NCBI RefSeq assembly: GCF_951230135.1
Contig: NZ_CATNVC010000007.1
Location: forward strand, 62,001 to 126,000
DNA from: Butyricicoccus sp. Marseille-Q5471
Lineage (GTDB): Bacteria; Bacillota; Clostridia; Oscillospirales; Butyricicoccaceae
Length of the DNA: 64,000 bases
Direction: 5' to 3'
In this document: piece by piece, positions 44,869 to 49,611 of the stretch
Position numbering within the stretch: the first letter of the stretch is position 1
How the letters are laid out: every line of letters starts with the position of its first letter
Notes under the pieces: generated by a model
What the model was told of the DNA's origin: nothing
What the model saw: only the letters and a program-made list of their open reading frames with translations
The model's database searches: none
Translations under genes and position numbers: made by a program

Positions 44869-45321
44869 CGTATCTGCGCATCTTGCTGTGTGTGTAAAAA
44901 CAAACAACTTGGCTACACATATGCAATTGAGTAGGCTTACAAGAATGATCTCCTTGGGAAATAATGAATCCGAGGCAATGGTTACGAAGTGTCTGAAATC
45001 GATAAATACCGGTATGGGTTATGTGAAATAGGAACGTTGCCTAGAACCGACCGATCTGGGCTGCGGAACGAAAAGCGGCGCTCGGTTTTTATTCCCTTTA
45101 TGTAGACAGTAGAAGCTGAGCGGAAACGACTGCAATATGTTCGTTTATGCAGTACAGGAGATCGAAGTGCTTGCACCGAACGCGATGGGTCTGCCACGAT
45201 TGTGCAACTTGTTTGCGCTAGGGATATCAGGGGGCTTATGGCTACGTTTGCAGGGCTTGTATGCGAAAAATATGTAGTAAGGGCCGAAATCTGAGGAAAA
45301 CCGAATATATATTATAACTAT
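44869..45321. other. Gene-free stretch
   Basis: About 450 bases. Short open frames here have no ribosome site and no recognisable product. A TATATTATAAC stretch at about 45307-45317 resembles a -10 element for the operon that follows, but I see no matching -35. Confidence 0.4.
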
Positions 45322-45349
45322 GAACCCGAGGGATTCGTCCCTCGGGTTC
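45322..45349 (+). terminator. Perfect UUCG hairpin in the leader of the DUF960 operon
   Basis: Twelve-base perfect arms (GAACCCGAGGGA / TCCCTCGGGTTC) with a TTCG tetraloop followed by TATTTTTATTT. It sits 27 bases before the DUF960 start. It could end an upstream transcript or attenuate or stabilise the operon mRNA. Confidence 0.75.
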
Positions 45350-45376: not shown

Positions 45377-45664
45377 ATGAAATCAGAAAAACGTTACATC
45401 ACGCGCGGGATTCAGTCAACGCTACCGGGCTGGCTGGTCAATCTGCTGTGGTTCTTGCGGGACGGCATGGAGATGGAGAAGCAGGATTACTTGCAAATCT
45501 TTCGCCTGAGCCGGACGGACAAGGGGCAGCACATTGAGCACGAACAGGAGCAGCCGCCATATCAGCGTATGCTGGATGTTCCCTGCGAGGACGCGGTCAA
45601 TGCCAAGGTCTACATCATCGACGACGAAACGCACGTTACTATGCTGCTGGCAGATGAGTATTGA
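45377..45664 (+). CDS. DUF960 family protein
   Basis: 95 residues from ATG 45377 (CGGAGG upstream). The family pattern is clear: RYITRGIQSTLPGWLVNLLW, DYLQIFRLS, PPYQRMLDVP and IIDDETHVTMLLADEY. DUF960 proteins are small, soluble and uncharacterised, often on mobile elements of Bacillota. It is first in a tight operon with an amidoligase and a class II glutamine amidotransferase. Confidence 0.88.
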   Translation: MKSEKRYITRGIQSTLPGWLVNLLWFLRDGMEMEKQDYLQIFRLSRTDKGQHIEHEQEQPPYQRMLDVPCEDAVNAKVYIIDDETHVTMLLADEY

Positions 45665-45680
45665 TGAGGAGGAGAAGAAA

Positions 45681-46787
45681 ATGAAAGAAAAATTTACATG
45701 CATCCATTGTGGCCGCGAATTTCCGGTGGAGGATGCTGTTTACTGCGGCGATGACCTGATGTGCCCAAGCTGTGCGGACGAGCTTACCGTTACCTGCCGC
45801 AACTGCGGCGAGCGGGTCTATCTCGATGATTCCTATGGTGAGGATGGTATGCGCATCTGTCCGTCATGCTTCGAGAATTATTTCGTTACCTGCGACCGCT
45901 GCGGCAGATTGGTACGGGAAGAATATGCCTGCTATGCGGACGATGACGAGGACGAATGCTACCCGCTCTGTGATGTCTGTGCCCACATCCGGAATCAAAA
46001 TGCCCTACACCGTTACGACTACAAGCCCGAGCCAATCTTTTATGGCAGTGGTCTGCGGCATTTCGGGGTGGAACTGGAGATTGATGATGCCGGGCAATCG
46101 TCCAAGAATGCCAAGCAGATCATGGCGGTCGCAAACCAAGAACATGAGCACCTGTATGTCAAGACGGACGGTTCGCTCGATAACGGCCTTGAACTTGTGA
46201 CCCACCCGATGACGTTGGAGTATCAAATGAATGATATGCCGTGGGCAGAAGTGCTGAGTGAAGCCCGCTCGCTTGGATACCTTAGCCATAAAGCCTGCAC
46301 CTGCGGCCTTCACGTACATATTTCGCGGAAGGCGTTCGGCATCACAGACGAAGAGCAAGAAGCTGCTATTGCCCGGCTGGTGTACTTTGTGGAACACTTC
46401 TGGACGGAGATTCTGCGGTTCAGTCGCCGCACCCAAGGGCAGGCCGACCGTTGGGCGGCACGTTATGGTGCGAAATTAACTCCTTCGGATACTAAGAAAC
46501 ACCTGAAGGGTATGCACGCCGGTCGGTATATGGCGGTCAATCTGACAAACTACCATACCGTGGAGATCCGCATTTTCCGTGGCACGCTCAAGCTGAATAC
46601 CTTGCTGGCGACCCTGCAATTCGTAAACCATCTGTGTGATGTTGCGGTGTACCTGAGCGACAGCGAGTTGGAGGAGCTATCATGGCATGACTTTTTGAAT
46701 ATGGTGCATGAACCGGAGCTGATTCAGTACCTGAAAGAGCGGAATCTCTACAAAAACGACCCGATTTCGGCAGAGGAGGATGTCTAA
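45681..46787 (+). CDS. Amidoligase-family enzyme with N-terminal zinc ribbons
   Basis: 368 residues, AGGAGG upstream. Residues 1-105 contain three to four CxxC zinc-knuckle pairs (FTCIHCG, LMCPSCA, VTCRNCG, ICPSCF, VTCDRCG, LCDVCA). Residues about 130-340 are the glutamine-synthetase-like amidoligase domain: FGVELEIDD, KTDGSLDNGLELVTHPM, CGLHVHISR, YMAVNLTNYHTVEIRIFRGT. Family knowledge: such enzymes are predicted to form amide bonds between amines or ammonia and carboxylates. The next gene supplies a glutaminase domain, overlapping by one base. Confidence 0.88.
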   Translation: MKEKFTCIHCGREFPVEDAVYCGDDLMCPSCADELTVTCRNCGERVYLDDSYGEDGMRICPSCFENYFVTCDRCGRLVREEYACYADDDEDECYPLCDVCAHIRNQNALHRYDYKPEPIFYGSGLRHFGVELEIDDAGQSSKNAKQIMAVANQEHEHLYVKTDGSLDNGLELVTHPMTLEYQMNDMPWAEVLSEARSLGYLSHKACTCGLHVHISRKAFGITDEEQEAAIARLVYFVEHFWTEILRFSRRTQGQADRWAARYGAKLTPSDTKKHLKGMHAGRYMAVNLTNYHTVEIRIFRGTLKLNTLLATLQFVNHLCDVAVYLSDSELEELSWHDFLNMVHEPELIQYLKERNLYKNDPISAEEDV

Positions 46788-47728
46788 TGTGCAGTTTATT
46801 TGGACTCATCGACTACAAGGGCGTGCTGAACAGCCGCGCCAAGAACCACATCTTAAACACACTTGCCCGGATTTGCGAAGCCCGTGGCACCGACGCAACC
46901 GGCATTGCATACCACTCAGGCGGTAAGCTCTGCATTTACAAGCGCCCGCTTCCCGCGCACCGCGTCAAGTTCCGGGTACCGCCAGACGTCAAGGTTGTGA
47001 TGGGCCACACCCGTATGACCACTCAGGGAAATGCCAAATTCACCCAGAATAATCACCCGTTTCGCGGTCAGCTTGAGCATGCTCAGTTCGCGCTGGCACA
47101 TAACGGCGTGCTCTGGAACGACCGCACCTTGCGCATCACCGAGAACCTGCCCCAAACCAGCATTGAGACCGACAGCTATATTGCCGTCCAATTGCTTGAA
47201 AAATACAAAGCCCTCGACTTCCAAAGCCTGAAAGGCATGGCAGAGAAGGTCGAGGGTTCTTTTGTGTTTACGGTGCTCGACAGCGAGGACACCGTCTGGC
47301 TGGTTAAGGGCAACAACCCGCTCGCAATCTTCTGCTATGATGGCTTCCTGCTGTATGCTTCGACCGAGGCGCTGCTGATGCAAGCCGAATACCGCTTGCG
47401 CCTGTACCACATCAGCAAAATCGGAGCGGAGGAAGGTGAGATATTGCGGATTGACCGAAAAGGTGAAGTGACGCGCGGCAGCTTCATCCCCCAAAACAGC
47501 TACCGTCACTTTTGGCGGCAGTACCCATATGGTATGCCGCTGTGGGACGAGCCGGAGCTTACCGGGCAGGATGATTTGCTGGACGCGGCCAAGGCAATAG
47601 GGGTGAGCGAAGCCGATGTACAGATTCTGCTCGATTACGGCTGCGAGCCGGAGGAAATCGAGGAGCTGTTATACGAACCCGAGCTGCTGCGCGACATCCT
47701 CGGAACGCTGCGGTACAGCTATATATAA
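46787..47728 (+). CDS. Class II glutamine amidotransferase (stand-alone glutaminase domain)
   Basis: 313 residues. The mature N-terminal nucleophile is Cys2 (MCSLFGLIDYKG). Ntn-hydrolase motifs follow: GTDATGIAYH, MGHTRMTTQGN, FALAHNGVLWND and ETDSYIAVQLLEK. It has no synthase domain like that of GlmS, PurF or AsnB; the last 60 residues are acidic and helical. It should release ammonia from glutamine. Translational coupling to the amidoligase (TAATG) suggests it feeds ammonia to that enzyme. Confidence 0.9.
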   Translation: MCSLFGLIDYKGVLNSRAKNHILNTLARICEARGTDATGIAYHSGGKLCIYKRPLPAHRVKFRVPPDVKVVMGHTRMTTQGNAKFTQNNHPFRGQLEHAQFALAHNGVLWNDRTLRITENLPQTSIETDSYIAVQLLEKYKALDFQSLKGMAEKVEGSFVFTVLDSEDTVWLVKGNNPLAIFCYDGFLLYASTEALLMQAEYRLRLYHISKIGAEEGEILRIDRKGEVTRGSFIPQNSYRHFWRQYPYGMPLWDEPELTGQDDLLDAAKAIGVSEADVQILLDYGCEPEEIEELLYEPELLRDILGTLRYSYI

Positions 47729-47746
47729 AGGAAGGGGGTGAACCGC

Positions 47747-47821
47747 ATGAACGTAGGCACGATCATCATGGCCGCCGGCATGATCATCAGCGAGCTGCTG
47801 GATGATGACGAGGACGGTTAG
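47747..47821 (+). CDS. 24-residue peptide, last in the amidoligase operon
   Basis: ATG 47747 has a strong site (GGGGGTGA six bases upstream) and follows the amidotransferase stop by 18 bases. The peptide has a hydrophobic, Met/Ile/Gly-rich N-terminal half (MNVGTIIMAAGMII) and an acidic end (SELLDDDEDG). No family is known to me. The length, site quality and position make it a candidate substrate or a small membrane partner of the amidoligase; this is inference. Confidence 0.55.
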   Translation: MNVGTIIMAAGMIISELLDDDEDG

Positions 47822-47900
47822 TCCACAAAGGTGTACCTTTTCGAACGGGGTAAAATCTCAGCAAAACCGTGTCTGAAAAGGTCCAAACAGAGTAAACGGA

Positions 47901-47934
47901 AATGTCCGAAAAGGCAACCACCTTTTCGGACATT
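47901..47934. terminator. Bidirectional terminator between the amidoligase operon and fic
   Basis: Perfect 14-base arms AATGTCCGAAAAGG / CCTTTTCGGACATT with a six-base loop; the right arm overlaps the fic stop codon. Confidence 0.8.
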
Positions 47935-48535
47935 AATCTTTGGTTAAACACTTTTTTAAGACAGGAATCAATGCACGATAATCATCGACCGACTCAATAG
48001 ATGCAGATAAAATCGATTCCTTGTCAGCAAGGCCCCAGTTGATGTCATAGCTATTTTTAAGCGCGAGTTCACGAATGAATTCTCGAACGGCACGACCATT
48101 TCCCTCTCGAAAAGGATGAATGATATTAAGCTCGGCCATGACAAAGGCTAGCTGGTCTAGCAGTTGTGGGAAAGGATATCCAATAAAAAAGTGATTGGTC
48201 TTAATCGTTGCACATAGCTTATCGAGCTCGCGTTCGATTAAATTGGGTGGATAGAACCATGTAGTAGCTTTGCCAATCTGTTCTCTCCGAAAATAGCCGG
48301 CAAATGAATATATATCTTCGAACAAGAAGCGATGGATGCGGCAAAGGTGTGTTTTGCTAAAATGTCCCCGGATTGGGTAACGCAGCAATTCATATTGCTT
48401 TATCGCTGTGATTTCCTCTTCAGCTGCTTTCAGGGCAGTGTTGTCACGAATATTCAACCGATTACACAATACCGCTGTCCCGCGATAGCAATACGGCGAT
48501 TCAGCTGTTGAATAAAGTTCATATTTGGAGAACAT
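47933..48535 (-). CDS. fic: Fic-domain AMPylating toxin
   Basis: 200 residues. The complete active-site motif HPFREGNGR lies near residue 140, preceded by the flap region FYPPNLIERELDKL. Fic enzymes transfer AMP (or related groups) to hydroxyl side chains of target proteins. There is no inhibitory motif within the protein itself, in line with a separate antitoxin, encoded just upstream. ATG 48535 is used; a GTG one codon earlier is possible. Confidence 0.93.
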   Translation of the reverse strand: MFSKYELYSTAESPYCYRGTAVLCNRLNIRDNTALKAAEEEITAIKQYELLRYPIRGHFSKTHLCRIHRFLFEDIYSFAGYFRREQIGKATTWFYPPNLIERELDKLCATIKTNHFFIGYPFPQLLDQLAFVMAELNIIHPFREGNGRAVREFIRELALKNSYDINWGLADKESILSASIESVDDYRALIPVLKKCLTKD

Positions 48536-48539
48536 CACA

Positions 48540-48716
48540 CTACTGCTTTCTCATGTGTCGCTGTTTAGCGGCAGCCACAAGCTGTTGGCAGTTGGCTTTG
48601 CCGGACTCCAATTGCTTCAATGCAGAATGCGTGGAAGGCGTAATCGTCATATTCTCAGCGGCAAATGTCCCTTCAAGACACTGTAGACGCTGTTCAAATG
48701 CTGATTTGGTCTTCAT
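48540..48716 (-). CDS. Fic antitoxin (class I, VbhA/FicA-like)
   Basis: 58 residues ending four bases before the fic start. It carries TFAAEN at residues 17-22, matching the inhibitory motif (S/T)xxxE(G/N) of class I Fic antitoxins, in which the glutamate blocks the ATP site of the toxin. The rest (ITPSTHSALKQLESGKANCQ) looks like the antitoxin_VbhA fold. The start codon lies after GGGGAA. The order antitoxin then toxin is typical. Confidence 0.85.
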   Translation of the reverse strand: MKTKSAFEQRLQCLEGTFAAENMTITPSTHSALKQLESGKANCQQLVAAAKQRHMRKQ

Positions 48717-48791
48717 GAGAAATTCCCCCTTTTAATAATTTCATATTACCATATGAATCGTTTGTTTTCAATCTAAAAAGGAGATATAGAT

Positions 48792-49391
48792 ATGCCTCTC
48801 AAAACCTTTTACTATGCTCGCGTATCTAGCCGTGAGCAAAACCTTGATCGTCAACTGGAAGCATTTCGTCAGTTGGGTGCCAACGAGCGAGAAATTATCA
48901 CCGATAAAGAATCCGGCAAGGATTTAAATCGACCGGGATATCAGGCACTTAAATCAGCAATGCTTCGTCCGGGTGATGTATTGGTGGTCAAGTCACTCGA
49001 CCGCCTCAGCCGCAGCAAGGCTGATATCAAGAATGAGCTGCAGTGGTTCAGGGATAATGGTATCCGCCTGCGCGTCATCGATCTGCCCACCACAATGATG
49101 GAGTTGCCCGATGGTCAAGCGTGGGTGTTTGACATGGTCAACAACATTCTCATTGAGGTGTTGGGAACGATTGCTGAACAGGAGCGCGTTACCATTCGCC
49201 AGCGTCAGCGCGAGGGCATCAACGCGGCGAAGGCCAAAGGCAAACACCTTGGGCGACCATCTATCTCCAAACCAGACAACTGGGATGAAATTATCATGGG
49301 GTGGAAAAGCGGTGAGTTCACCGCTAGAGATGCTATGATGAAGCTTGGGATGAAAAAATCTACATTTTATCAAATAGTTCAGCAAGGATGA
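48792..49391 (+). CDS. Small serine recombinase (resolvase/invertase)
   Basis: 199 residues from ATG 48792 (AAGGAG upstream). The catalytic domain has YYARVSSREQNLDRQLEAF with the nucleophilic serine, VVKSLDRLSRSKADI, and IAEQERVTIRQRQREGI. A linker (GKHLGRPS) and a C-terminal helix-turn-helix follow. It may resolve or invert the island; no inverted crossover sites were recognised. A terminator follows. Confidence 0.93.
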   Translation: MPLKTFYYARVSSREQNLDRQLEAFRQLGANEREIITDKESGKDLNRPGYQALKSAMLRPGDVLVVKSLDRLSRSKADIKNELQWFRDNGIRLRVIDLPTTMMELPDGQAWVFDMVNNILIEVLGTIAEQERVTIRQRQREGINAAKAKGKHLGRPSISKPDNWDEIIMGWKSGEFTARDAMMKLGMKKSTFYQIVQQG

Positions 49392-49440: not shown

Positions 49441-49611
49441 TATATCCGCACTTTAAGTTTTTCAAACAGGTAGACTCATATTTCCATTAATGTTATAATA
49501 TTGACAATATGAGATAAAATTTGAGAATCTGATATGCCTAAAATAGCAATAATAGGAAACTGAAAGCCCATTGATAAAATATCAAAGCGAAATTGAAAGG
49601 AATGATTGAAT

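Follow-up and report, generated by a model that had tools for sequence, protein, structure and literature searches.

The window, i.e., the complete 64,000-nt stretch of Butyricicoccus sp. Marseille-Q5471 analyzed here, carries four consecutive ORFs on the plus strand, as described in a previous sequence-only reading, and the identities proposed there for the first three genes are borne out by Pfam. The first ORF (45377..45664) encodes a 95-aa DUF960 protein (PF06124, E 2.8e-24) which is also related to the protein of the solved structure 2r41 (E 0.0073). It is followed by a gene for a 368-aa amidoligase of predicted glutamine synthetase (GS) fold with N-terminal LIM-like zinc ribbons (45681..46787; PF12224, E 7.4e-7, 29.7 bits versus a cut-off of 22) and a gene for a stand-alone class II glutamine amidotransferase of 313 aa, in the following termed glutaminase (46787..47728; GATase_6, E 1.9e-11, also matching GATase_7). 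The TAATG overlap noticed earlier is present, the stop codon of the amidoligase gene and the start codon of the glutaminase gene having one A in common (46785-46789). The last ORF (47747..47821) encodes the 24-aa peptide MNVGTIIMAAGMIISELLDDDEDG, whose family is kept downstream of the glutaminase. It starts 18 nt past the glutaminase stop and is preceded by AGGAAGGGGGTGAACCGC, the ribosome-binding region being assigned from the sequence to 47729..47746 (plus strand), and an alternative in-frame GTG at 47738 would result in a peptide longer by 3 residues.

Upstream of the operon, a promoter-like box without -35 element, ATATATTATAACTATGAA (45307..45324, plus strand), represents the single match in the window, with 0 mismatches at a chance expectation of 0.08 for up to 2 mismatches, and a looser box pattern gives one match in the own genome in forward direction and one when read backwards. 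A general promoter scan of the window did not list this box and revealed no excess of promoter-like sites. At once after the TATA-rich box follows a strong 12-bp hairpin (45322..45349, plus strand; dG -22.5), whose end is 27 nt away from the start codon of DUF960, with the ribosome site in between. In many related operons, a TAyATAnTATA box occupies this position; it is absent from the two other copies of the own genome (L004 and L093), and the arrangement of box plus hairpin is seen, for example, in L009, L016, L041, L055, and L102. The hairpin stems differ among relatives, yet still pair. In a raw tally without shuffled control, a hairpin is present not more than 85 nt upstream of the first gene in 48 out of 68 loci, and in 26 out of 28 when the amidoligase is at least 54% identical, with the box not occurring in all of them. 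Terminator-like sites are not in excess in the window (4 found versus 3.3 expected), and the box-hairpin stretch of the window gave no match in Rfam. Probably located where the operon transcript begins, the hairpin may function as a 5' stabiliser or as a terminator/attenuator.

Downstream of the operon (47846-49391), the window encodes a Fic protein, next to which lies a 58-aa ORF, followed by a serine resolvase. A resolution site possibly includes the inverted repeat found at 47901-47934. By eye, resolvase-like genes follow many related operons. When comparing six neighborhoods by ORF, these were found to differ widely, indicating that the cassette is either mobile as a whole or carried by elements of different kinds. 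Further downstream, region 52158-53090 matches the UzuA models of PADLOC (E 3e-41).

In an alignment of 50 amidoligase sequences, 12 cysteine residues arranged as six CxxC pairs are invariant, the corresponding region being weakly LIM-like (best E 0.0024). For the C-terminal domain, a GS/YbdK fold is predicted (overall pLDDT 85, with lower confidence around residues 250-290), i.e., the fold of carboxylate-amine ligases, with weaker Foldseek matches to PafA and Dop (E 2.5e-3 and 2.9e-3, respectively); on the basis of this model, the enzyme belongs to the glutamine-synthetase/GCS fold. Likewise invariant in the 50 sequences are E131, E133, H211, H213, R282, E295, R297, and R300, which we take, from the roles of such residues in GS, to be candidate metal/ATP residues. 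The glutaminase is related to PurF/GlmS and shows invariant C2, R76, N106, G107, and D129 in alignment A3 (35 sequences), presumably the nucleophile (C2) and the glutamine pocket (R76/N106-G107/D129). Near-clade glutaminases, i.e., those most closely related to the window enzyme, bear a C-terminal extension of about 15 residues, mostly of the form ..LLHE..ELLYAY, which most of the distant A3 rows do not have. PADLOC gave no match to the three larger proteins. In the own genome (G000), the enzyme pair occurs twice more, each time with a peptide (G000:C3 and G000:C4). In addition, G000:C16 and G000:C21 carry strong Amidoligase_2 genes, both of 351 aa, and frames of 76-150 aa that match the amidoligase in its zinc-ribbon part only occur at G016:C170, G004:C1:153781, G054:C25, and G002:C16:49160.

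For establishing the distribution of the peptide, the glutaminase was searched in 87 genomes of the family, 394 of the order and 391 of the class, and the flanking DNA was read. After removing copies with identical last 150 nt (e.g., L036, corresponding to L035), 32 distinct glutaminase genes with at least 54% identity were obtained, from which L020, L094, L068, L022, and L072 were set aside as broken or cut by the contig end. The missing end of L020 is probably located on a different contig from this genome, where it is accompanied by a family peptide (L124). Behind all 27 distinct complete near-clade genes a downstream mini-ORF is present, in 25 cases overlapping the glutaminase or not more than 30 nt from its stop; at G000:C3 and G000:C4 the peptide is kept even with an ORF of about 95 aa inserted in between. 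With 14 peptides as rows, a profile was constructed that matched at 20 of the 27 loci, 13 of which had supplied these rows. Another six (group C) encode a related peptide in a -1 shifted frame, and in the remaining one (L038) the mini-ORF at the same place is hydrophobic but unrelated. With a profile from groups D and E plus L124, four of the six group C loci were recovered among 34,889 segments at E 0.009-0.26, whereas the remaining two gave no match below E 0.5 despite reading nearly the same. DUF960 is less regularly associated: of the near-clade operons, 17 have it, 7 have no DUF960 and 3 end at a contig edge.

Across the 87 genomes, the peptide profile gave 22 matches with E<1e-3, and one more when E<0.01 was allowed (23 in total), mostly its own rows or near-copies, with G000:C3, G000:C4 and G011:C19 (the 23rd match, on a contig starting inside the glutaminase) as clearly new ones. 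All 23 lie downstream of a glutaminase belonging to the family of the window enzyme, and away from the glutaminase the near-clade profile found no match at E<0.06 in these genomes. A viral contig (L168) also encodes the peptide together with an amidoligase of 58% identity. In a glutaminase tree of 71 rows, all 27 rows with the peptide group together in a single clade (99/100), outside of which the other 44 are placed, so that gain, or loss, of the downstream peptide took place a single time. A hydrophobic 24-aa peptide bearing acidic residues is co-inherited with the enzyme pair. In the 44 distant rows, for some of which the available DNA is short (L064, about 100 nt downstream), the profile found no peptide of the near-clade family, and all 44 show an amidoligase match directly upstream of the glutaminase; the two enzymes are thus not dependent on the peptide as such. 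The presence of a peptide gene in related operons, to which the sequence-only reading had tied its idea of a peptide substrate, consequently holds for the close relatives but not in general, and a general role of the peptide as substrate of all such pairs is unsupported.

Conservation of the reading frame had been set beforehand as a test by which the proposal could fail, and third codon positions indeed vary most in every group. Summed over pairs, differences at codon positions 1/2/3 amount to 61/22/97 in group A (window, L013, L014, L041, and L012), 158/60/287 in group B (8 loci), 1/0/10 in E1 (the first peptide of L011 and L037) and 35/9/114 in group C (6 loci, shifted frame). The third-position excess is modest in group A (16 of 32 variable columns, P 0.04) and likewise in group B (P 0.014; 18 of 34). 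It is strong in E1 (10 of 11, P 1.3e-4) and group C (19 of 26, P 4e-5), some rows being copies from the same genome (G026 and G054 in B, G002 in E1) and therefore not independent. In the 60 nt past the peptide stop, taken as unaligned stretches, 58, 60, and 46 columns differ in A, B, and E1, respectively, and no frame bias is detectable. A chance ORF is ruled out by related peptides at the same operon place and by the third-position excess. On this codon-position evidence, the 24-aa ORF is a real gene, of a size which annotation normally drops and yet under selection.

The related peptides comprise 22-35 aa. By eye, a recurrent feature in the related groups is an Asp or Glu residue closing the hydrophobic stretch, with a second acid 3-4 residues on. 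The tail of several carboxylates highlighted in the sequence-only reading is found in groups A and B, but it is absent or of mixed charge in group C, group D, L124, and L038, and was consequently rejected as a conserved feature. An amphipathic surfactant-like helix was rejected as well, as the helical moment exceeds that of shuffles at the 5% level in only 2 of 18 peptides (L015 with 21/500 shuffles and the first peptide of L011 with 0/500). In group C (L006-L010 and L035), the conserved peptide frame is -1 relative to an SD-spaced ATG/GTG, TGGGGCAATTTCCAAAGC is invariant in all six loci, and the 19 of 26 variable columns mentioned above are third positions of the -1 frame. Judging from these sequences, group C may employ a programmed frameshift or a non-standard start. 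Read-through of the glutaminase stop was rejected as explanation for group C, since the spacer of 15, 16, 18, or 19 nt following it changes the frame between loci.

Other mini-ORFs are associated with some of the distant pairs. When scanning 42 distant operons for hydrophobic mini-ORFs (mostly about 0.4 kb upstream, without shuffled control), an upstream peptide pair was found in six (L053, L054, L097, L047, L069, and L070), consisting of the cationic p1 (27-32 aa) and the hydrophobic p2 with Ile-Asp near its end. Five operons (L079, L084, L087, L091, and L095) have a hydrophobic mini-ORF not more than 60 nt past the glutaminase, that of L095 being overlapped by a longer frame, and in many of the 42 none of these peptides was found. 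In addition, p1 is present in L072 and both p1 and p2 in the viral contig L170, and L084 and the viral L177 have a further type of downstream peptide in common. The conserved p2 frames in L054, L097, L069, L070, and L170 are without clear ATG/GTG from the preceding stop up to their conserved part; that of L054 contains an in-frame TTG, and in four of these five loci an ATG opens an overlapping frame of 2-3 codons in another frame. In 394 genomes, p1/p2 matches at E<1e-9 were restricted to the training loci. p2-like peptides directly precede non-pair genes in G415 (8e-6; L148) and G368 (5e-4; L149), which look like DUF932 (a putative name, as are DUF932 and DUF3846 for genes in other loci), and no glutaminase was matched at 1e-30 in these two genomes. 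Obviously, p2 also occurs independently of the enzyme pair. Another ten matches of p2 (8e-4 to 0.007) lie inside frames of at least 205 aa, and an hhalign comparison of p2 with the window peptide does not support homology (probability 15).

On viral contigs, 80 of 353 amidoligase loci were examined, 15 of which show a glutaminase match; in the other 65, a glutaminase match is absent from the stretch examined around the amidoligase. A pattern scan of viral contigs for the glutaminase alone found none and has to be considered insensitive, as the amidoligase scan brought up the 15 loci with glutaminase. Against the plasmid collection, the glutaminase gave no match and the amidoligase six partial ones (32-34%), and in phage records two glutaminase matches were obtained (45% over 91% of the query in L095, and 28%).

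As deduced from the enzyme families, the glutaminase would free ammonia from glutamine, and the amidoligase would use ATP for activating a carboxylate and joining the ammonia to it. In the least certain step, the peptide might serve, entirely or in part, as the acceptor, its likely amidated side chains being the recurrent Asp/Glu that close the hydrophobic segment. The product of the cassette would then be a modified membrane-active or membrane-bound peptide. We regard this amidation of the peptide by the enzyme pair as quite possible, if short of probable, because the peptide represents a real gene, is linked to the pair and confined to one clade (99/100), and because the active sites are invariant and the fold is that of a ligase. 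Counted against the acceptor role are the distant pairs without peptide, the patchy occurrence of the acidic tail and of DUF960, the 65 of 80 viral amidoligase loci without glutaminase match and a scan of 8 proteins that gave no leader, protease or exporter. More tentatively, amidation of a leaderless hydrophobic micro-peptide by a zinc-ribbon GS-fold amidoligase and a stand-alone glutaminase might represent a new ribosomal peptide modification.

Alternatively, and somewhat unlikely, the peptide might serve the enzyme complex as a small subunit without catalytic role, as membrane anchor or as activator, with a cell-wall precursor, a metabolite or a protein as the true substrate. A short hydrophobic stretch with charged end, encoded at the end of the operon and co-inherited in one clade, would fit such a role, as would the C-terminal extension of the near-clade glutaminases missing in most distant A3 rows; however, distant pairs persist without the peptide, and the helical moments of group A are not above those of shuffles at the 5% level. 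It is also unlikely that the peptide is just one of several hydrophobic peptides of mobile elements (membrane, leader or similar) hitchhiking behind the pair. The missing profile matches away from the glutaminase in the 87 genomes and the low hhalign probability for p2 versus the window peptide argue against this, albeit p2, as another family, stands upstream of both distant pairs and the DUF932-like genes of G415 and G368, and an unrelated mini-ORF occupies the same place in L038. A toxin with enzymatic antidote, in which the enzyme pair would silence a membrane toxin peptide and the element would be retained, in analogy to type VII toxin-antitoxin systems where the toxin is neutralised through modification by an antidote enzyme, is improbable, as searches of Pfam, NCBIfam and PHROGs assigned the peptide to no family, although its short hydrophobic nature, the enzymes being encoded first and the adjoining Fic and resolvase genes in the window would be compatible.

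The amidation reading can be compared with several known systems. Amidoligase_2 and GS-like carboxylate-amine ligases have been described (Iyer et al., 2009, as cited in PMC11318856 and PMC4431377), and the occurrence of amidoligases in phages and mobile elements is already known, those of mobile elements being listed with gamma-glutamyl cyclotransferase-like genes in PMC11318856 and PMC3485107. The window enzyme shares with Amidoligase_2 proteins PF12224, the GS/YbdK fold, the invariant ExE plus His/Arg set and the phage and mobile-element relatives, whereas the zinc ribbons with 12 Cys, the separate class II glutaminase and the co-inherited micro-peptide distinguish its cassette. Similarly, in the Pup/PafA/Dop system, whose enzymes PafA and Dop were among the Foldseek matches, a GS-fold enzyme acts on the carboxylate or amide of a small protein, but here the peptide has only 22-35 aa and a glutaminase is present; moreover, the C-terminal Gly-Gly-Glu/Gln conserved in Pup was not seen by eye in any of the family peptides. 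Graspetides are products of a RiPP pathway employing amide-forming ATP-dependent ligases and likewise have a short encoded peptide beside the ligase. Their ligase, however, is of another fold, and neither a leader or leader-bearing precursor nor a protease or exporter, as typical of RiPPs, was found in the scan of 8 proteins, which began with DUF960 and reached the PIN gene at 49606. With the glutaminase domains of GlmS/PurF the window glutaminase shares the Cys2 class II type, but it is without fused synthase domain, its likely partner being the separate amidoligase. Among the literature matches listed, none deals with an amidoligase with linked micro-peptide, an earlier mention being possible.

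For amidoligases of the PF12224 family, acceptors have been predicted, and we know of none that has been identified. The linked and conserved micro-peptide therefore offers a concrete and cheap candidate substrate or partner for such an enzyme, with natural peptide variants at hand, including the three copies in the own genome. If the proposed amidation is true, the unrelated micro-peptides of other lineages, i.e., p1/p2 upstream and the L084/L177 type downstream, would represent a dedicated peptide for each enzyme lineage.
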